NCBI RefSeq assembly: GCF_001040705.1
Contig: NZ_CVQP01000007.1
Coordinates: 89,815 to 153,814, forward strand
Length of the DNA: 64,000 nucleotides
Direction: 5' to 3'
Source: Rhodococcus sp. RD6.2
GTDB lineage: Bacteria; Actinomycetota; Actinomycetes; Mycobacteriales; Mycobacteriaceae
Part shown: one piece after another, positions 1 to 9,498 of the stretch
Layout of the letters: each line of letters starts with the position of its first letter
Position numbering within the stretch: the first letter of the stretch is position 1
Made by a program: the position numbers and the translations under genes
The notes under the pieces: model-generated
The model's input: only the letters and a program-made list of their open reading frames with translations
Told to the model about the DNA's origin: nothing
Database searches by the model: none

Positions 1-2036
1 CCCGCACACGCGAGGCCCGCAGCGTACGAACTTGTTTCGGCGGCAACGCCGAGTGCATGTGCATGCGGGATCAGGTCGGTGGGCGACTCGGTGAGGATCG
101 CTGCCTGCACGCCGTACCAGTGCAGCGGGGTGCCCCACAGGATCGGTTCGTCGAGTCGCGTCAGCAGTTCGCGTGCCTGGTCGACGAGATGTGCGACCCG
201 CTCGGTGGCGCCGAGACGTGCTGCACCGAGCCATAGTTCGCCGAGAGGAAGCAGGCTGAGCAGATCCACCGAATGCTCGGCGACAACGGGACCCGCGGCT
301 TCCCAGGCCTGGTGCAGTGCCCCGATGTCACCACCCCGGCGCGCAACACCGACCCGCAGTGCGGCGGCGAACAGGGCGTCGCGGGGTCGTTCCGCCACCG
401 CGGACAGCGCGTCAACCGTGCGGGTCGCGGCGTCGAGATCGCCCTGCAGCATCGACACCCACGCACCCAGGAGGCGGTGCCGATTGTGGGCGACGTCGGT
501 GTCGGGGTCGCCTTCGCTCGCCCGCGCGAGAACCGCAGCCGCGCGACCCAGCTCGCCGCAGTGCATGGCGGTCAGCGCCGTCACCGCCGAGCCGGTGTCG
601 GGGAGCAGTCGGGTCCGAGGGGCGTTGGCGGACAGGGACACCGCGCGTGCCATCGAGTTCAGCGCTACCGCCGTCGGGCCGTCCATCGACTGACGCAACC
701 CCTGAGCGAGAAGTGCCTCGCCCGCCGAGGTCGAGGTCGGCGGAGCATCGGTTCCGCCTGCCGCTGCCGCGTCGGCCGCGTCGGGCCGGCCCGCGGCGAG
801 CAGGACGGACTCGGCGATCGGCCGGTCGACGCCGAGACGATCCGGCCCCAGCCACTCGTACAGGTCCGCACTGCGGACCAGCATCCCCTGGTGGGCGGCG
901 ATGCTCGCCGCGATGCGGACGGCAGCTGCCAGCTCGGGTCCGGGTGTCGTCGAGGCCTTCTCGAGCAGGGTGTCGGCGAGTCGGGCAGCGGTCACCAGGT
1001 CGCCCGACAGGCCCGCTGCCTCGGCCCGGCGCAGCGTGAAGGCCTCGGCATCCGCGCCCGCCCACACCGCCTCCTCGTACAGCGCGGTCGCCAGTCGCGG
1101 AGTCGCGAGAGCGGCCTGGGTGCAGAGGTATTCGGCTAGCTCGGGGTCAGTCAGCCCGGCTGCCGCGAAGGCGCGCGCCGACGGGACGTCGAGGGTGCCG
1201 AGTTCGATCTTGACGCGAAGGAGTTCGAGTTGCAGTGCCGTCACCCGCTGGGGTCCGACCGCGGAACGCAGGGGTTCGCATGCCGACGCCACCAGGGCGC
1301 CGGTGGGGAGCAGGAGCCCGCATCCGCGTGCTCGTTCCACCAGGTCGCGCGCGTCCGGCAGTGCGAGCAGGCGGGCCAGTTCGCCCGCGTCGAGTCCAAT
1401 GCCGGTCATCGCAACGGTCAACGCGGACAACAGGTTCGCATCCATCGGCGCGAGCACCTCGGCGTGGCAGGAGGCGACGGACGTCGCGACGACGCGGTCC
1501 GCCGCCGCCGTCGACGGCATGTCGGCCAACCCCGCCAGAGCGGCATCGACGCATCGCGGAGCTCCCGCCGTGAGCCGGTGGATCAGCGCGACCAGGGTGG
1601 TGGGAAGTGTCGCTCCGAGTACCGCTTCCGCTCGGCGGGAGACCTCCCGTGACGTGAGGTTCGTCAATGTCAGCGATCCGCCCAGCGCGGCGGCGAGGGC
1701 CTGCAGATTCGGGTTGCCGGACCGTGGCTCGGAGGCGACCACGACCGTCGTGTCCGGGCGCCTCGCCAGATCGGCCAGTGCGTCGAGCGTCGACGCCGAC
1801 AGCAGGTGCGCATCGTCGACGACCACCGCGGCGCCGGGGGCCGTGGCCTCCGCCGGATCCGAGGTCACCGGCCCGGGAACGTGATCCCGCACCAGGGCCA
1901 GCAGCGCCGACTTGCCGGTGCCCGACGCGCCGCGAATCAGGACGTGCGGATGACCGGAGCGGACACCGTCGAGGAGGGCACGCGCGGGGGCCGACGACGC
2001 GACGGCGGGGGCCGGGCGGGTGAGCTGTGCGGGCAC
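1..2036 (-). CDS. iniR: IniR-like ATPase transcriptional regulator (3' end cut by window edge)
   Basis: The minus-strand frame stays open from a start near 2036 to the left edge, giving about 678 visible residues. A Walker A motif (GASGTGKSA) lies about 38 residues from the start and a VVVDDAH Walker B follows; the rest is alpha-helical and Ala/Leu-rich, as in large STAND/LuxR-type regulators. The C-terminus, where a DNA-binding domain would be expected, lies outside the window. The GTG at 2036 is preceded by AGGAAGG at 8 nt spacing. An alternative GTG at 2069 overlaps the stop of the Hsp70-like gene as GTGA. In M. tuberculosis the regulator next to iniBAC is Rv0339c (IniR), reported to be needed for iniBAC induction; family size, ATPase domain and position match. 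The assignment to IniR is inference from context and domain type. Confidence 0.72.
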   Translation of the reverse strand, partial: MPAQLTRPAPAVASSAPARALLDGVRSGHPHVLIRGASGTGKSALLALVRDHVPGPVTSDPAEATAPGAAVVVDDAHLLSASTLDALADLARRPDTTVVVASEPRSGNPNLQALAAALGGSLTLTNLTSREVSRRAEAVLGATLPTTLVALIHRLTAGAPRCVDAALAGLADMPSTAAADRVVATSVASCHAEVLAPMDANLLSALTVAMTGIGLDAGELARLLALPDARDLVERARGCGLLLPTGALVASACEPLRSAVGPQRVTALQLELLRVKIELGTLDVPSARAFAAAGLTDPELAEYLCTQAALATPRLATALYEEAVWAGADAEAFTLRRAEAAGLSGDLVTAARLADTLLEKASTTPGPELAAAVRIAASIAAHQGMLVRSADLYEWLGPDRLGVDRPIAESVLLAAGRPDAADAAAAGGTDAPPTSTSAGEALLAQGLRQSMDGPTAVALNSMARAVSLSANAPRTRLLPDTGSAVTALTAMHCGELGRAAAVLARASEGDPDTDVAHNRHRLLGAWVSMLQGDLDAATRTVDALSAVAERPRDALFAAALRVGVARRGGDIGALHQAWEAAGPVVAEHSVDLLSLLPLGELWLGAARLGATERVAHLVDQARELLTRLDEPILWGTPLHWYGVQAAILTESPTDLIPHAHALGVAAETSSYAAGLACA

Positions 2037-2065
2037 GGTGTTCGCCTTCCTGATGCCGGTCGGGG

Positions 2066-3832
2066 TCACTGGCCGAGGAGTCCGTCGGTGACGCCGCCGA
2101 CGACACCTCCGACGAGTTGGCCGGTGCCGCCGAGCACACCTCCGACGAGTCCACCCGCGCCGTCGACCACGTTGCCGAGGCCCTCACCTGCGCCTGCGGC
2201 AGCGTCGCCGACACCCTGTCCGATTCCGGTGCCGCCGCCACTCGGAGCCGGAGCGGGTGGCGTGTAGGCGGGGGCGGGCGGAGGAGCCACCACCGGTGCC
2301 TGAGGCGTGTTCGCCTCGGGCGCAGCGGCAGGCGGGCTTGGGGGCCGAGCCCCGGTGGTCGCCGCCACCGTCGCGGCCCGCGCGGCGTCGGTCGTGGATG
2401 CCGCACGAGCGGACCCTGTCGCGCCGGTCGCCCGGCCCGTGGACGCCGCTTCGGTTGTCGACGGAGAACCGTTCGACGGGCTCGAGTCGACCGCGACCTG
2501 GGCCGTCGTCCCCGGCGTCGTCCCCGGCGTGGTCTCGGAGGTGGTGGTCGCGGCATCGGACTTCGATCCGGATGACGAGTCGAACACCCCGGTGCCCAAC
2601 GACAGGCCGCCGGCCGCGAGCAGCACGATCGCGGCGGCGGCCGCGGAGACGAGCGCCGCCTTCTTCGGTGTCGTCAGACCGCCACCTCGGTGCACGGTCG
2701 GCGCGATCGTTGACGTGACCTCGGGCGCCGCCGGTGCCGCGGCGCCGAGGGCAGCGCCGAGTGCGGCGAACGCGGCCGTGTCCGTCTCGGCCGGTGTCGC
2801 GGGGAGGGGCACCGCCGACTCGGAGGCCAACAATGCGGCACCCGATGCCGCGGTCGCCGTCGGGTCCGCGTCAGCGACGACCGGCACACGCAGGGTCGAC
2901 GACAGCAGTTCGGCAACAAGGGGAATCGACGAACTGCCGCCGACGAGAAGTATCGACCCGATGTCCGACATGTCGAGACCTGCGCCGCGGACCGCCTCGT
3001 GCACCAGGTTCACCGAGTCGGCGAGCGGTTCCCGGAGCAGGTCCTCGAGCTCCTCCCGGACCAACCGGACGTCGCAGCGGACCCCGGGCAGGTCGACCGT
3101 GAGGACCGTCGCCGTGTCCGACGACAGCGCCTCCTTCGCTGCACGGCACTGCATCCGTAGTTGCGTCAATGCGGCGGCCGCGCGGGGCTCGAACGGGTCG
3201 ATGCCGTTCACCCCGTCCGGCAGGGCACCGAGGACGTGCTGCAGCGTCATGTGGTCGAACGCGGAACCCGAGTACTCCTCGGACCGCAGCGGCGCGCCGA
3301 GGATCTCCGGATCCTCCTGTGGGCGAACCACAGTCACGTCCAGCGAGCCCGCGCCGAGGTCGTACACCACGACCGGGGCGTCGTCCGTGTGGGACCGGGT
3401 GCGCTGCATCCACCGGACCGCGGCCTGCGGTTCGGTGACGAAAGCGACGTCGGGGAGGCCCGCGAGGTCCAGCGCGGCGGCCAGCACGTCCACCTGGTAG
3501 CCCGTCCAGACGGCCGGATGCGCCAGGGCGACGGCATCCGCCGGCGGAACCGAATCGGCCAGGCACCGCGCCGTCGCGGCGACGAGATCCTCGCCGGAAT
3601 GAGTGCTGCCGTCGTCGGCGATCAATCCCACCGGATCGCCCACCCGGCCCGCATACCCCGCGATCACCACGGGTGGTGTCGCGCCGTCCGACACCAGCGA
3701 CACTGTCGCCCCGTCGAGGGCGAGCGCCGTCGGGACCGTCACGATCTCCGCCCTGCCCGCCGCGGCGTCATCCGCGTCGAGCGCCGCCGTCGACTGCGCC
3801 GAGCCGATGGTCAGTCCGAGCCCTGTCGCCAT
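2066..3832 (-). CDS. Membrane-anchored Hsp70-like protein
   Basis: 588 aa from ATG 3832, which has GGGAG 7 nt upstream; an in-frame start further upstream would run into the divergent promoter region. Residues 1 to about 340 form an Hsp70-type actin-fold ATPase: an N-terminal phosphate loop (GLTIGSAQS), a second loop (VYDLGAGSLDV near 157) and an adenosine motif (LLVGGSSSIP near 296). There is no recognisable Hsp70 substrate-binding domain. Instead there is one membrane segment at about 391-412, a Ser/Thr-rich linker, a Pro/Ala stretch and a hydrophobic Gly/Val/Leu tail that resembles the repeats of IniB across the intergenic region. The protein is probably anchored in the plasma membrane with the ATPase inside and the tail outside. 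Its stop overlaps or adjoins the iniR start, so the two are likely co-translated. Function unknown; a client-specific chaperone or envelope sensor is an inference. Confidence 0.85.
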   Translation of the reverse strand: MATGLGLTIGSAQSTAALDADDAAAGRAEIVTVPTALALDGATVSLVSDGATPPVVIAGYAGRVGDPVGLIADDGSTHSGEDLVAATARCLADSVPPADAVALAHPAVWTGYQVDVLAAALDLAGLPDVAFVTEPQAAVRWMQRTRSHTDDAPVVVYDLGAGSLDVTVVRPQEDPEILGAPLRSEEYSGSAFDHMTLQHVLGALPDGVNGIDPFEPRAAAALTQLRMQCRAAKEALSSDTATVLTVDLPGVRCDVRLVREELEDLLREPLADSVNLVHEAVRGAGLDMSDIGSILLVGGSSSIPLVAELLSSTLRVPVVADADPTATAASGAALLASESAVPLPATPAETDTAAFAALGAALGAAAPAAPEVTSTIAPTVHRGGGLTTPKKAALVSAAAAAIVLLAAGGLSLGTGVFDSSSGSKSDAATTTSETTPGTTPGTTAQVAVDSSPSNGSPSTTEAASTGRATGATGSARAASTTDAARAATVAATTGARPPSPPAAAPEANTPQAPVVAPPPAPAYTPPAPAPSGGGTGIGQGVGDAAAGAGEGLGNVVDGAGGLVGGVLGGTGQLVGGVVGGVTDGLLGQ

Positions 3833-4209
3833 GCTGATTCTCCCGTCTGCGAGGCGTCGACCCCGACGCATCGAACTGCGCGTCGAAAGGTCCACAACCC
3901 GTGTCGTGCGGTGGGCGTCAGCCCGGTGTCCCCGGGGCCGAGAAGGGGCCCCAGGGGGCGGCCCCAGGGACCGCGCTATTGCCATCAGTGTCGTCCTCGA
4001 AAGCGATTCCGTTACCGAATGCGAACCCATAACCGCAGTTGAGGGGCATTTCCCCCATATCGCCGGGATCCCCTATATCCCCTACCCCCGGGTCGGCCGA
4101 TCCAATGGGGGAGTCGACCCCGTTGGGCGGGGCGTCACCGCTGCCTAGTTTCGAAGTGTCACTTTTCCTGTGGGCCACGCCGAGCCACACGACACGTCAG
4201 GAGTCCGAC
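3833..4209. promoter_or_regulatory. Divergent control region between hsp70-like and iniB
   Basis: 377 nt without a supported gene. It must hold the promoters for the Hsp70-like/iniR unit and for iniBAC. A GC-rich symmetrical stretch (GGGGCC...GGCCCC) lies near 3946-3966. Two similar elements, CCCCATATCG and CCCTATATCCCC, lie near 4052-4085 and could be regulator half-sites. No regulatory site here was tested beyond reading the bases. Confidence 0.5.
4123..4151 (+). promoter_or_regulatory. Candidate iniBAC promoter
   Basis: TTGGGC (4123-4128) and TAGTTT (4146-4151) are separated by 17 nt, which fits a housekeeping-type promoter. This predicts a transcription start near 4158 and a leader of about 50 nt before the iniB ATG at 4210. 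The match to consensus is partial. Confidence 0.4.
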
Positions 4210-6078
4210 ATGGCCACCAACGCGCTGCTCGATTTCATCCTCAGCCTGCTGCGCGACGACGAGGCGCGGGCCGCGTACTGCGCGAATCCCGACGCGGTTC
4301 TCGCGGCCGCCGGGCTCGGCGACGTCACGCACGCCGACATCACGGCCGTCGCCCCGCTCGTCGCCGAATCCGGACTGTTCGCGGGAGCGGGCACCGCACT
4401 GACCGGCATCCTCGGCGCGGGCGCCGAGGCGGGCGGAGCGCTCGGAGGCGCCGTCGGCGGCGGGCTCGGCGCCGGCCTCGGCGCGGGACTGGGCGGCGGT
4501 ATCGGACTCGGCGCCGGGGCGGGCCTCGGGCTCGGTGCAGGAGGAGGCCTCGGCCTCGGTGCGGGAGGAGGCCTCGGCCTCGGCGGCTCCGCGGGCGGAA
4601 GTGTCGGAGGTGGCGTCGATCTCGGCGCCGACCTGGCGGCTGCCCTCGGTGCCGCCCTGCAGGTCGGTGGGCAGATCGGAGCCGATCTCGGTGCCGCACT
4701 CGGCGCGGCCCTCGACGCCGGAGCCGGTGTCGGTCTGGATCTCGGAGGCGTGGCCGACCTGGATCTCGGCGGAGCACTCGGCCTCGGCGGTGGACTCGAT
4801 CTCGACGCCGCACTGGGCCTCGGCACGTCCGTCGCCGCCGCACTCGGTGGCGCGCTCGGAGTCGGAGGCGACCTCACCGCAGACCTCGGCGGGGCACTCG
4901 GTGGTGTGCTCGGCGCGGTCACCGGCCTCGACCTCGGCGGTGCCGCGGACATCGGTGGTGCACTCGACCTGAGCTCGGTGCTCGGTGCGGCATTCGGAGT
5001 CGGCGGCGACCTCGGCGCCGCACTCGGAACCAGCCTCGGCGGTGTCCTCGGCGGCGCACTGGGAGCAGGCGGGGACCTCGGCGGGGTGCTGGAAGCAGGA
5101 GGCGGCCTTGGCGGGGCGCTGGACCTGGGAGGTGCCCTGAGCTCGGTGCTCGGTGGATCCCTCGGTCTCGACTCCGCCCTCACGACGGACCTCGGCGCTG
5201 CTCTCGGCGGCGCACTAGAGGTGGGCGGGCTCACGGGTCTGGACCTGTCCGGGCTGGTCGGCGGTGCGCTCGGCGCAGGCGCCGAGGCCGGATCGGCTCT
5301 CGACGCCGGGCTCGGAGGGGTGCTCGGCGGCGGGATCGACGGTGTGCTCGGCGCGGATCTCGGTGCGGCGGTCGACGGTGTGCTCGGCGGCGGGATCGAT
5401 GGTGCGCTCGGCGCGGACCTGGGTGCGGCAGTTGACGGTGTGCTCGGCGGCGGGGCAGCCGGTGATGTGGGCGCAAGCTTGGGCGGCCTGCTCGACGCGG
5501 GCGCCGGGCTGACCGGCGGACTCGGTGGCGCGCTGGGCGGCGTTGTCGATGCGGGAGGGGGAGCGGCAGCCGACCTGAACACCGCGCTGACCGGCGCCGC
5601 GAGTGGCGGCATCGAGACCGCTGCGGGTCTCGGGCAGGGCCTGGTCGCCGGTGTCGGCGGCGGGGTCGGAGGCGCCATCGACGCCGGTGCAGGACTCGGC
5701 GGCGACCTCGCGGGAACCGTCGATGCGGCGGCGGACGCGGGCGCGAGCCTCGGCGGAGCGGTCACCGGAGCGATCGACGCAGGCACCGCGATCACGTCGG
5801 GACTCGACGCGTCCGCGGCCGCAGGCGGCCACCTCGACACGGGCCTGGCCGGCGACCTGACCTCCGGGCTGCAGGGCGCCGCGTCCGGTGTCGGCAACGC
5901 ATGGACCTCCCTGGACGCGTCGAGCGCGTTCGGTGCGGAGACGTCGGCGTCGACCGGGCTCGAGGCGGGCGTCACGTCCGGTTCGGACAGCCTGTTCTCG
6001 ACGGGGGACAGCCTGTTCGGCCAGGCCGAGGCCGTCACCCACACCGATGTCGCCGACACCGCGATGCACGGCGAGTAG
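4210..6078 (+). CDS. iniB: IniB-like Gly/Ala-rich envelope protein
   Basis: 622 aa from ATG 4210, with AGGAG 6 nt upstream. The first 60 or so residues match the conserved IniB N-terminal domain (LLDFILSLLRDDEARAAYC, then an AVLAAAGL helix). The remainder is a low-complexity Gly/Ala/Leu/Asp repeat region, with repeating LGGALG, DLGAAL and GVLGGG units, ending in a Ser/Thr/Gly-rich tail. No classical signal peptide or single membrane helix is visible. In mycobacteria IniB is the first product of the iniBAC operon, which is induced by inhibitors of cell-wall synthesis; its biochemical role is not established. It leads iniA and iniC here with an intervening hairpin. The repeats explain the large antisense reading frames over this gene, which are not genes. 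Confidence 0.88.
   Translation: MATNALLDFILSLLRDDEARAAYCANPDAVLAAAGLGDVTHADITAVAPLVAESGLFAGAGTALTGILGAGAEAGGALGGAVGGGLGAGLGAGLGGGIGLGAGAGLGLGAGGGLGLGAGGGLGLGGSAGGSVGGGVDLGADLAAALGAALQVGGQIGADLGAALGAALDAGAGVGLDLGGVADLDLGGALGLGGGLDLDAALGLGTSVAAALGGALGVGGDLTADLGGALGGVLGAVTGLDLGGAADIGGALDLSSVLGAAFGVGGDLGAALGTSLGGVLGGALGAGGDLGGVLEAGGGLGGALDLGGALSSVLGGSLGLDSALTTDLGAALGGALEVGGLTGLDLSGLVGGALGAGAEAGSALDAGLGGVLGGGIDGVLGADLGAAVDGVLGGGIDGALGADLGAAVDGVLGGGAAGDVGASLGGLLDAGAGLTGGLGGALGGVVDAGGGAAADLNTALTGAASGGIETAAGLGQGLVAGVGGGVGGAIDAGAGLGGDLAGTVDAAADAGASLGGAVTGAIDAGTAITSGLDASAAAGGHLDTGLAGDLTSGLQGAASGVGNAWTSLDASSAFGAETSASTGLEAGVTSGSDSLFSTGDSLFGQAEAVTHTDVADTAMHGE
5320..5460 (+). repeat. 60-bp tandem repeat inside iniB
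   Basis: The 60-nt unit beginning GTGCTCGGCGGCGGG starts at 5320, 5380 and 5440, encoding a 20-residue unit (VLGGGIDG followed by LGADLGAAVDG). Unit number could vary by slippage between strains. Confidence 0.8.
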
Positions 6079-6096
6079 CACTCGGGTGTAACGAAA

Positions 6097-6132
6097 CCGG
6101 CCCCGCACGCGGTGAGACACGTGCGGGGCCGG
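6097..6132 (+). terminator. Hairpin between iniB and iniA
   Basis: Perfect 12-bp arms CCGGCCCCGCAC (6097-6108) and GTGCGGGGCCGG (6121-6132) enclose a 12-nt loop, 19 nt after the iniB stop and 30 nt before iniA. There is no T-run, so it may act as a partial terminator or an RNA-stabilising structure that sets iniB above iniAC. Confidence 0.6.
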
Positions 6133-6162
6133 ACCTCGCGGAAAGAACGGTGAGTCGGGTTC

Positions 6163-7989
6163 ATGGACAACGCATCCGGTTCGGCGATGCCGACGAGTGC
6201 GACGCGAACGGCCGAGTTGACCGGTCTCGTCGACGAGGTCGCTGCTGTCGCCGCCGCTGCGGGGCGCACCGATCTGGTTGCCAGGCTGGAGGGTGCCCGC
6301 ACGAGGCTCGTCGACCCGCGGATGCGCATCGTCGTGGTCGGCCCCCTCAAACAGGGCAAGAGTCAGTTGGTGAACTCGCTGCTGAACCTGAGCGTCTGTT
6401 CGGTCGGGGACGACGAGACCACCGCGATCGCGACCGTCGTGCACAACGCGGATGTCGCGTCCGCGGAACTCGTTCTGGCGGAACCGGGGCTGGACCCGGT
6501 GCGGGTTCCGATTCCTCTCACCGACCTCGCCGGACTCGACCCGTCGACTCCGGCGGCCGGTGGTCGCGAGGTGCTGCGAGTCGAGATCGGTGTCCCGAGC
6601 CCGCTGCTGGCGGACGGGCTGGTGTTCGTCGACACGCCGGGCGTCGGAGGTCACGGGAACCCGCATGCCGCCGCCACTCTCGGTCTGGTCACGTCGGCCG
6701 ACGCCGTACTCGTGCTCTCCGATGCCAGTCAGGAGTTCACCGAACCCGAGGTCGCGTTCCTCCAGCAGGTCGTCGGACTGTGCCCCGCCGTGGCCTGCCT
6801 GATCAGCAAGACGGACCTGTACCCGCACTGGCGCGAGATCGTGGAGGCCGATCGCGGTCACCTCGTGCGGGCCGGTCTGCAACTGCCGTTGATCCCGATC
6901 TCGTCCGTGCTGCGGACACACGCACTGCGACTGCAGGATCGGGAACTCGACGTCGAGTCGGGCTTCGCGGCGCTCTACGACTTCCTCCGCGAGCAGGTGC
7001 GCGCCCGCACCGAGGAGACCATCAGGCAGTCCGTTGCACTCGATGTTCGTTCCGTTGCCGAACATCTCGCGCTGACGCTGGGAAGCGAGCTGGCGGCACT
7101 GCGTGATCCGGCGAAGGGTGCCGCCGCCGTCGCCGAACTGCAGAAGGCGAAGGCGGTTGCGGAGGATCTGCAGAAGAAGTCGTCGAAGTGGCAGCAGACG
7201 CTTGCCGACGGCATCGCCGACCTCGCCGCCGACATCGACCACGACCTGCGGGACCGCCTGCGGCGCGTCACCAGGGAAGCGGAGGAGACCGTCGACGAGG
7301 GCGATCCCGGCCGGGACTGGCCCGCACTCGGGGAGTGGCTCGAACAGCAGGTGGCGGTGTCGATCGGCGACAACTTCGTGTGGGCGCACGAGCGGTCGGT
7401 GTGGCTGGCGGAAGTGGTCGCGAGCAACTTCTCCGACTCGGGTGCGGTGGCGTTGCCGCACCTGCACGTCGCGGATCTCGACGGACTGCTCGATCCGGTG
7501 GCGTCCCTCGCCGACCTGGAGTCGGGACGAATCGGCATCACCCAGAAGGTTCTGGTCGGCATGCGCGGATCGTATGGTGGCGTGCTGATGTTCGGGCTGA
7601 TCACCACGATGATGGGAATGGCGCTGGTCAATCCGATCTCGGTCAGCGCGGGACTGCTGCTCGGAACGAAGGCGTACCGGGAGGATCGGGAGTCCCGAAT
7701 TCTCAAGCGCCGCAGCGAAGCCAAGGTCGCGATCCGGCGATTCGTCGACGACGTCAGTTTCCAGGCGGGCAAGGAGTCGAAGGATCGGCTGCGGATGATC
7801 CAGCGGATGCTGCGCGACCACTTCTCCGAGGTCGCGGAGCAGACGTTGCGCTCGCTCGCGGAATCCCTGCGCGCAGCCCAGGATGCGGCCCAGGTCGCCG
7901 CATCGGATCGCGCCCGCCGCGCCACCGAGATCGAGGAGCGGATGCGGGTTCTCGCGGCGGCGCGGGACGCTGCCGGAGCGTCGAGGTGA
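6163..7989 (+). CDS. iniA: IniA-like dynamin-family GTPase
   Basis: 608 aa; M. tuberculosis IniA is about 640 aa. Bacterial dynamin-like proteins remodel membranes using GTP. The GTPase domain is complete: G1 GPLKQGKS at 60-67, a Thr-Thr switch region near 86-87, G3 DTPG at 157-160 and G4 SKTD at 214-217. A long helical region follows, with a coiled-coil-like stretch after about 300 and a hydrophobic paddle-like segment at about 467-500 (GGVLMFGLITTMMGMALV) suited to membrane insertion. The ATG at 6163 has GGTGAG 8 nt upstream. It follows iniB after the hairpin and overlaps iniC by 4 nt, so iniA and iniC are translationally coupled. It is likely an effector of the envelope-stress response controlled by the nearby IniR-like regulator. 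Confidence 0.9.
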   Translation: MDNASGSAMPTSATRTAELTGLVDEVAAVAAAAGRTDLVARLEGARTRLVDPRMRIVVVGPLKQGKSQLVNSLLNLSVCSVGDDETTAIATVVHNADVASAELVLAEPGLDPVRVPIPLTDLAGLDPSTPAAGGREVLRVEIGVPSPLLADGLVFVDTPGVGGHGNPHAAATLGLVTSADAVLVLSDASQEFTEPEVAFLQQVVGLCPAVACLISKTDLYPHWREIVEADRGHLVRAGLQLPLIPISSVLRTHALRLQDRELDVESGFAALYDFLREQVRARTEETIRQSVALDVRSVAEHLALTLGSELAALRDPAKGAAAVAELQKAKAVAEDLQKKSSKWQQTLADGIADLAADIDHDLRDRLRRVTREAEETVDEGDPGRDWPALGEWLEQQVAVSIGDNFVWAHERSVWLAEVVASNFSDSGAVALPHLHVADLDGLLDPVASLADLESGRIGITQKVLVGMRGSYGGVLMFGLITTMMGMALVNPISVSAGLLLGTKAYREDRESRILKRRSEAKVAIRRFVDDVSFQAGKESKDRLRMIQRMLRDHFSEVAEQTLRSLAESLRAAQDAAQVAASDRARRATEIEERMRVLAAARDAAGASR

Positions 7990-9452
7990 CCGCCGCGGCG
8001 TTGGACTCGGCACGGACGCTGATCGGGTCGGCGCGGGAGGCGGTCGGTGCGCGGGCGCGGTCCGGGCTGGACGACTGTGCCCGACGGCTCGAGGAGCCGC
8101 TTCGTGTGGCGCTGGCGGGTTCACTCAAGGCGGGCAAGTCAACCCTCCTCAATTCCATTGTTGGGCAGGACATTGCACCGACAGATGCGACGGAGTGCAC
8201 CCGGGTCGTCACCTGGTACCGCAGCGGCGCGACGCCCACCGTTACCGCCCGCTACGACGGCGACCGCACGGCCAACGTCCCGGTCCACCGTATCGGCGGC
8301 GCGCTCACCTTCGACCTCGGACAGTTGACCGCGGCCGACGTGGACCGGCTCGAAGTGGAATGGCCCGCCCGCGCACTGCGGCACACCACGATCATCGACA
8401 CCCCGGGCACGTCGTCGCTGTCACGCGACGTCTCCGCCCGCACCCTGCGCATGCTCACCCCCGAGGACGCGACGTCGGGTGCGGACGCGGTGGTCTACCT
8501 GCTGCGCACCCTCAGCGCGTCCGACGTGGACTTCCTGGGTCGGATCGGCGCACACGTAGGCGGCGAATCCGGCCCGCTCGGGGTCGTCGGGGTGGTGTCG
8601 CGGGCCGACGAGGTCGGTGCGGGCCGCATCGACGCGATGTCGTCCGCGCGCGACGTGGCCGACCGGTTCGCCACCGAACTCGAACGCACCGGGCTCTGTC
8701 AGGCCGTGGTGCCCGTCGCGGGTCTCCTCGCACTCGGCGCACGCACACTCCGTCAGGCCGAATTCGAGGCGTTCCGTACCCTCGCCGACGTCCCGGCGGA
8801 CGACCTGCAGGTGGCGATGCTCTCGGCGGACCGGTTCGCGCGCCCGGACTCTCCACTGCCGGTCGATGCCGAACTGCGTGCCCAGCTGGCACATCGCTTC
8901 GGGCTGTTCGGGATTCGACTCGCGGTGACGCTGATCAAACTCGGGACGCAGGATTCGCCGACGCTCGCCGCCGAACTCGTCGAGCGCAGTGGGCTCGACG
9001 AGCTGCAGCAGGTGATCGACGTCCAGTTCGGGCAGCGCGCAGATCAACTCAAGGCGCATTCGGCGTTGCTCGCCGTCGAACGAGTGCTCGCCCACGAGCC
9101 GGGAACGGACGCCGGACGGGTCCTGGGCGCCGTCAAGCAGGCGTTGTCGGACGGCCACGGGTTCCAGGAGATCCGGCTCCTCGGGCGACTGCGATCGACA
9201 CCGGTGACGCTCGGCGACGACGACACCCGACTACTGCAGAGGCTCGTCGGCGGCAACGGTGTCGCGGCCACCCAGCGTCTCGGTCTCGCACCCGACGCCG
9301 GCCTCGCGCAGCAGCGGGACACCGCGCTCGGAGCGGTGCGCTTCTGGCGCACGCGTGCACAGCACCCGCTCGTCGACGGCTTCACGGCGCGGGCCTGCGC
9401 CGTCGCCGCCCGCAGCGCGGAGGGTGTGCTCGCGAACCTCGCCGCTCAGTGA
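7986..9452 (+). CDS. iniC: IniC-like dynamin-family GTPase
   Basis: 488 aa; M. tuberculosis IniC is 493 aa. The GTG start at 7986 overlaps the iniA stop (GTGA) and has GGAG 7 nt upstream. G1 is AGSLKAGKS (about 44-52), G3 is DTPGTSS, and SRAD serves as G4. It lacks an obvious membrane paddle and is shorter than IniA, as in mycobacteria where the two GTPases differ in architecture. A heteromeric action of IniA and IniC is plausible from their coupling but is inference. The long frame extending upstream into iniA is not used, since it would overlap iniA by hundreds of bases. Confidence 0.9.
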   Translation: MTAAALDSARTLIGSAREAVGARARSGLDDCARRLEEPLRVALAGSLKAGKSTLLNSIVGQDIAPTDATECTRVVTWYRSGATPTVTARYDGDRTANVPVHRIGGALTFDLGQLTAADVDRLEVEWPARALRHTTIIDTPGTSSLSRDVSARTLRMLTPEDATSGADAVVYLLRTLSASDVDFLGRIGAHVGGESGPLGVVGVVSRADEVGAGRIDAMSSARDVADRFATELERTGLCQAVVPVAGLLALGARTLRQAEFEAFRTLADVPADDLQVAMLSADRFARPDSPLPVDAELRAQLAHRFGLFGIRLAVTLIKLGTQDSPTLAAELVERSGLDELQQVIDVQFGQRADQLKAHSALLAVERVLAHEPGTDAGRVLGAVKQALSDGHGFQEIRLLGRLRSTPVTLGDDDTRLLQRLVGGNGVAATQRLGLAPDAGLAQQRDTALGAVRFWRTRAQHPLVDGFTARACAVAARSAEGVLANLAAQ

Positions 9453-9468
9453 CGCGACCCACATCCGC

Positions 9469-9498
9469 TTGAGTTCGTACCGGCCGGTCTCCTAGGTT
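9469..9498 (+). promoter_or_regulatory. Promoter of the secreted Gly/Ala-rich protein
   Basis: TTGAGT (9469-9474) and TAGGTT (9493-9498) are 18 nt apart, placing the start of transcription near 9505 and leaving a leader of about 38 nt. It implies that the gene at 9543 can be expressed separately from iniBAC. Confidence 0.5.

Follow-up and report, generated by a model that had tools for sequence, protein, structure and literature searches.

A membrane-anchored Hsp70-like protein encoded beside iniR is a candidate partner of the iniBAC regulator in Mycobacteriales

We analysed a stretch of 64,000 nucleotides (nt) from Rhodococcus sp. RD6.2 (contig NZ_CVQP01000007.1, positions 89,815 to 153,814; hereafter the window), which begins with the regulator gene iniR, a gene for a membrane-anchored Hsp70-like protein directly 5' of it, and the divergently oriented effector genes iniB, iniA and iniC. 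An earlier note on this DNA had drawn attention to the hsp70-like gene and had named a neighbourhood confined to this strain as grounds for refuting its reading. We found that the gene lies directly 5' of iniR in 139 of 178 distinct loci of the family Mycobacteriaceae, from 14 genera, and that in three other families (f14, f15 and f16) a corresponding match precedes iniR, with divergent iniA and iniC, in 19 of the 20 loci. In light of these counts the arrangement is more than chance, and a strain-specific insertion is ruled out. Judged from its sequence, the gene may encode a nucleotide-binding, membrane-anchored pseudo-Hsp70 that acts as a dedicated partner or regulator of IniR, a proposal for which we regard the balance as even.

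The Pfam profile HSP70 (PF00012) matched the window protein with 84 bits (cut-off 20.6) over profile positions 136-372 of 599, and no match to this profile was obtained past position 372, where a membrane helix and a tail stand in place of the substrate-binding domain (Table 1). The profiles and coordinates confirmed what the earlier note had described, namely a membrane Hsp70-type ATPase without a substrate domain beside iniR, divergent iniBAC, and a GTGA overlap in which the hsp70-like stop codon (2066-2068) meets the GTG start of iniR (2067-2069). Its account of the gene content also stood; the start of the hsp70-like gene had to be moved inward from the opening of the open reading frame (ORF), and the frame 7883-9472, which is not that of iniC, was not accepted as a gene. 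The same topology is found across the family, as a hydrophobic helix follows the ATPase domain in 134 of 138 iniR-proximal ORFs and is in turn followed by a Thr/Pro-rich tail with a median of 146 amino acids (aa). One of the four helix-less ORFs is degenerate (L108), one was matched as two pieces (L128) and two are unexplained (L149 and L250). By eye, the f16 copies carry the helix and a long tail, and part of the f14 copies carry the helix and a short one.

We examined the catalytic residues using the DnaK of the window genome itself as alignment ruler and numbering the sites after what we take to be the catalytic residues of E. coli DnaK, D8, K70, E171, D194 and T199. The window protein does not have this set, with T, A, E, D and S at the five sites. 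Among 135 iniR-proximal copies of the family, D8 and K70 were each found in 0/135 and T199 in 4/135, while Asp or Glu occupied site 171 in 134/135 and D194 was present in 135/135. The adenosine-side motifs are kept in Mycobacteriaceae (GG in 135/135, the Lys of AKExLS in 128/135), as is the Asp of the phosphate-2 loop (135/135). In 18 copies of f14, f15 and f16, for which 8 of the 10 f14 loci entered the residue table (L283, below 100 bits, and L285, without the gene, were left out), K70 was again absent (0/18) and D8 was present in 13; D194 was lost in 14/14 f14 and f15 copies and kept in 4/4 f16 copies, and E171 was mostly lost in f15 and f16. K70 is missing from all 153 aligned iniR-proximal copies of Mycobacteriales. 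The full set of five residues was found among iniR-proximal copies only in two outer ones, L292 (family f18) and L293 (f51), and the simplest reading of this pattern would be a decay of hydrolysis within Mycobacteriales. The protein has in common with Hsp70/DnaK the ATPase-domain match, the adenosine-side motifs and the phosphate-2 Asp, and it differs in the lack of the substrate domain, of D8 and of K70 and in the added transmembrane helix and tail. Membrane adaptors of the PilM and GspL type likewise use an actin-fold nucleotide-binding domain.

The family counts refer to loci hand-picked from listed matches, several per genus and not at random: 101 loci and 80 from a named scan (among the matches listed) were annotated with purpose-built profiles, and removal of three duplicates left 178. 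At E 1e-30, an IniR match was obtained for 219 of the 401 GTDB family genomes, which cover 19 of its 31 genera. In genus g29, the NCBIfam IniR model (NF038181) matched 268 of 396 genomes at E 1e-100, 257 of them above the curated cut-off, and because of these 257 genomes and of three loci identical to named ones we took g29 to be Mycobacterium. The window-genome IniR scores 581 bits, below the curated cut-off of 750 bits, and the range over six genomes of its genus is 571-604 bits; outside Mycobacterium we therefore mean IniR-like, with an orthology that length and gene order suggest. The 139 loci with the pair comprise 137 assigned by rule and two added by hand in which the IniR match is split (L173 and L177), and include L108, a truncated locus from which iniA and iniC are gone. 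Nine of the 178 loci stop too soon to be classified, and 30 are without an hsp70-like gene beside iniR (26 by rule plus L183, L189, L193 and L194, where an iniB match lies 171-232 bp from iniR). At least 7.5 kb are available on the iniBAC side in 128 of the 139 loci, of which 125 show iniB, 124 iniA and 119 iniC. From the hsp70-like stop to the 5' edge of the IniR match the median distance is 1 nt (quartiles -10 and 7, range -598 to 921, all 139 loci).

In the other three families, iniB was recognised in 16 of the 19 loci, and the hsp70-like match of L283 is degenerate (79 bits). With an f14 IniR as query, 33 of the 345 genomes searched in the class (Mycobacteriales among them) gave a match at E 1e-45, corresponding to 12 of 127 genera. 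In two of four outer loci from families f18, f27 and f51, again L292 and L293, the regulator is directly preceded by the hsp70-like gene, and here no iniB, iniA or iniC match was found within 3.5-4 kb beyond it. The pair is also kept in three genomes of genus g24 (L112-L114) in which iniA was not found. The tie between ATPase and regulator that the earlier note had suggested is supported by these five loci in its direction; that the ATPase would sense or pass on envelope stress, and that regulator, ATPase and effectors would make up a three-part repair system, are conjectures of that note.

The divergent promoter contains direct repeats that may be the IniR operator. We were able to delimit the divergent region in 133 of the 178 loci (in slow growers it includes iniB*), and the most enriched eight-letter words in it centre on TCCCCTAA; these words occur in 103 of the 133 regions as against 0.9 in shuffles. 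At least two copies of CCCCTA[ACT] are present in 120/133 regions (0.75 in shuffles), in 99/99 from Mycobacterium and in 21/34 from elsewhere, with repeat pairs mostly 15, 17 or 18 nt apart. Where Mycobacterium has a second hsp70-like gene downstream of iniR, the repeats also stand in front of it in 20 of 22 cases. They were all but missing upstream of other genes (FeS 0/153, protease 0/76, iniA 1/147, iniC 0/141). When 20 whole genomes were searched with a strict pair pattern, 17 matches, two of them overlapping, were obtained in 13 genomes, 16 at ini and one, the sole match of G704, elsewhere; the reversed pattern gave 3. The window genome has no strict-pattern match because its repeats vary. 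Passages of PMC5760070 report binding directly upstream of iniBAC by chromatin immunoprecipitation (ChIP), and a targeted look through that text found no binding motif in them. We propose the TCCCCTAA direct repeats as candidate operator, to which IniR would bind.

The linkage to iniR, the junction, the topology and the loss of residues make a partner that regulates IniR, which it may inhibit, activate or localise, more plausible to us than a chaperone. We speculate that nucleotide is bound by the cytosolic domain, which would also dock on IniR and keep the regulator at the membrane in an inactive or poised state, in the manner of MalK and MalT. The state of the cell wall would be reported by the tail on the outside, and a change in nucleotide or tail state would release IniR. 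Freed IniR could then bind the TCCCCTAA repeats and switch on iniBAC and, in some mycobacteria, the second hsp70-like gene. In a wider and more tentative form, which we think somewhat doubtful, the protein would be a core member of iniR/iniBAC throughout Mycobacteriales: a membrane-tethered, hydrolysis-impaired Hsp70 that senses the envelope, acts as gatekeeper for a STAND activator and descends from a pair of active Hsp70 and regulator that survives elsewhere in the class. According to this wider form, the core member was overlooked because it has not been described beside iniR in the species in which IniR was studied.

Known systems lend this model an analogy. IniR is described as MalT-like in passages of PMC5760070, and MalY blocks MalT oligomerisation according to a passage of PMC10427625. 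In E. coli, as parts of these two papers describe it, MalT is likewise a LuxR-type activator of the STAND class that has partners, MalK and MalY, of which one is a membrane-associated ATPase; the likeness of MalK and MalY to the Hsp70-like protein is one of role, and no homology is claimed. Passages of PMC5760070 propose free trehalose as the IniR signal and leave binding partners for future work. As a difference between species, they also note that M. smegmatis has a dnaK-like gene next to iniR, which could be the iniR-proximal or a downstream hsp70-like copy. M. smegmatis itself is outside the sampled loci; the locus with the closest IniA (G707, 95.6% over 204 residues) has the iniR-proximal copy and no downstream copy. 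Beyond PMC5760070, we found no treatment of iniBAC/iniR together with Hsp70 or a dnaK-like protein in the open-licence literature. The M. marinum and M. tuberculosis loci, as presented in parts of PMC5760070, share with the window IniR, iniB, iniA and iniC, the divergent order and the MalT-like regulator, and differ in having iniB* between iniR and iniBAC.

Several observations weigh against the proposal. To begin with these two species, passages of PMC5760070 show that IniR is functional in M. marinum and M. tuberculosis and place only iniB* between iniR and iniBAC. In our sample, the 30 loci with IniR and no hsp70-like gene beside it are all from Mycobacterium and include M. gastri, M. szulgai, M. 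triplex and M. scrofulaceum. We take the exception species to be slow growers, the labels slow and rapid being taken from species names. Outside the family, L285 (f14) has IniR, IniA and IniC and no Hsp70-like match, and L290 and L291 (f27) have IniR and no such match in 4.7-4.9 kb upstream. By eye, the membrane helix is missing from the f15 copies and from part of the f14 copies. The candidate operator was not found upstream of moved copies (0/10, see below), of rapid-grower copies past iniC on the same strand (0/31) or of downstream hsp70-like copies outside Mycobacterium (0/29). Correlation of distances failed to single out the IniR-Hsp70 pair; it extends to every ini gene (partial r 0.59-0.84, FeS being held out, from the 41 usable loci among 96), and this comparison is uninformative.

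The Mycobacterium exceptions seem to reflect a move of the gene across iniBAC rather than its loss. In 21 of the 30 loci iniC is followed by an hsp70-like gene, which 19 loci show within the same stretch and two (G491 and G606) by genome search; none was seen past iniC in the other nine, of which eight stretches end before or inside iniC and one (L186) has an estimated 1.6 kb past it. In a tree of 147 rows, the opposite-strand copies past iniC group together as a single clade of 15 rows (support 100) within the clade of Mycobacterium iniR-proximal copies (95; nearest join 94), from which the gene appears to have moved; the same-strand copies past iniC of rapid growers form a separate clade. 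The tree, made by a quick method with SH-aLRT support only and with several long branches, includes 25 of 79 Mycobacterium iniR-proximal rows drawn at random and excludes pieces below 230 residues; L200 and L205 are not represented by their same-strand copies, both being too short. Loss of the gene in slow growers is unsupported where enough sequence is available. The hsp70-like gene had been presented as an unusual addition to mycobacterial ini loci; here it is the Mycobacterium loci without the gene beside iniR that look like the derived arrangement.

The location past iniC also bears on a different explanation, that the protein works with the effectors as a membrane scaffold for IniB, IniA and IniC, with its tail reaching into the wall and no role in the control of IniR. 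The gene stays in the ini locus in most loci and just past iniC in those 21, and the Gly-rich repeats that end several tails outside Mycobacterium resemble, by eye, those of iniB. However, the Mycobacterium tails inspected are Thr/Pro-rich without Gly repeats, the tight junction is with iniR, on the opposite strand from iniBAC, and the hsp70-iniR pair persists without adjacent iniBAC in g24, L292 and L293. We consider such a scaffold unlikely.

Ranked next, and improbable in our view, is an envelope protein in its own right, which would owe its place in the neighbourhood to co-expression with iniR and would need neither IniR nor IniBAC. This would account for L294, a single-contig Mycobacterium genome in which a moved-type hsp70-like gene (up to 67% identical) is kept near an Rv0338c-like gene, and in which the 11 kb read there gave no match to IniR, IniA or IniC. 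The same locus counts against our proposal and against a strict divergent unit of regulator, ATPase and effectors as the earlier note had it. In L295, two moved-type copies (best 90% and 65%) adjoin an IniR match that is weak (31 bits) and lies at the edge of the stretch. A further point against our proposal is that 20/20 tested Mycobacterium genomes without a strong IniR match (threshold E 1e-40 or 1e-100) carry an Hsp70-like match at 2.3e-110 or better; these matches include paralogues away from ini, which are also present in IniR-positive genomes. According to the tree, hsp70-like genes were duplicated repeatedly at ini, and the downstream copies of the window's genus and of Mycobacterium sit in separate parts of it. 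Half-size downstream copies occur in several genera; those inspected at five loci (L084, L087, L089, L096 and L105) consist of the first half of the ATPase domain followed by the helix and Thr/Pro-rich tail, so a structural role is possible. Against a separate protein stand the gene order and the stop/start junction, which are conserved across genera and families, and the 15 IniR-negative genomes outside Mycobacterium, none of which has an Hsp70-like match better than 1.0e-33 (117 bits), whereas the same profile gives at least 170 bits for 56/56 iniR-proximal copies outside Mycobacterium. A functional Hsp70 chaperone, with IniR or IniBAC as its clients for folding or disassembly, is very improbable, for the substrate domain is lacking and K70 is gone from every aligned Mycobacteriales iniR-proximal copy, even if the protein belongs to the Hsp70 family by Pfam and L292 and L293 keep the complete catalytic set.

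Two known kinds of system were considered and rejected. PADLOC gave weak matches only for an anti-phage system (the dynamins at best LeoBC 37 and LeoA 30 bits, others 17-24 bits). In the GTPase/HSP70 conflict systems of PMC7159879, an HSP70-domain-only protein stands beside GAP1-N2 GTPases, and the passages on them do not mention IniR.

The remaining features of the window locus are listed in Table 1. An IniB N-terminal domain followed by two dynamin-like GTPases, the make-up of an iniBAC operon, is present. Behind that conserved domain, the iniB bodies differ wholly by genus, with Gly/Ala/Leu repeats in the window and Asn/Asp/Thr-rich sequence in Mycobacterium (L115 and L121). Genes for a DyP-type peroxidase and an encapsulin lie 3' of iniR, just beyond the window, in six loci of its genus (including L072-L076); the corresponding queries had no match in the other 55 loci compared. 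Farther out follow a second membrane Hsp70-like gene and tandem serine proteases of secreted type, and many relatives have similar protease genes between an Rv0338c-like gene and iniR. Elsewhere the window genome encodes two more membrane Hsp70-like paralogues, one with the catalytic residues (L003) and one without (L006).

Table 1. Features of the ini locus in the window and on the adjoining part of the same contig (L008)
Feature	Position	Strand	Remarks
iniR, 5' part	3..2069	-	STAND/LuxR-type regulator; NCBIfam IniR NF038181, E 1.3e-122; gene runs past the window edge
Complete iniR of the window genome	L008:14395-16884		829 aa
hsp70-like gene	2066..3832	-	Listed ORF 2066-4030; start at M67 (3832) from comparison with relatives, not at the ORF opening (4030)
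Tail	2069..2602	-	178 aa, T/P/A-rich, Gly-rich repeats at the end; predicted outside the membrane
Predicted transmembrane helix	2603..2659	-	19 residues, mean hydropathy 2.25, preceded by KK
Hsp70 ATPase-type domain	2822..3832	-	DnaK D8 to T, K70 to A, T199 to S; E171 and D194 kept
Three direct repeats, candidate IniR operator	4052..4084	+	CCCCCAT at 4052, CCCCTA at 4070, CCCCTA at 4079
Near-palindromic element upstream of iniB	4107..4121		GGGGGAGTCGACCCC; resembling elements in several relatives (by eye)
iniB	4210..6078	+	Conserved N-terminal domain, Gly/Ala/Leu-rich body; NF038175, E 1.6e-22, above cut-off; start 4210
iniA, dynamin-like GTPase	6163..7989	+	Dynamin_N
iniC, dynamin-like GTPase	about 7980..9452	+	Dynamin_N; probable start a GTG overlapping the iniA end
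DyP-type peroxidase and encapsulin genes	L008:12476-14382		3' of iniR
Second membrane Hsp70-like gene	L008:9889-11766		Beyond encapsulin; Thr/Glu-rich tail
Tandem secreted-type serine proteases	L008:6866-9760

As the hsp70-like gene usually stays with the ini switch in the genomes compared, it may be an overlooked part of the envelope stress response. Should it be a partner of IniR, a membrane-spanning protein with a wall-facing tail would provide IniR with a direct sensor of cell-wall damage, the Hsp70 fold would be put to use as a pseudo-enzyme, and the best-studied mycobacteria would display a rearranged version of the ini locus.

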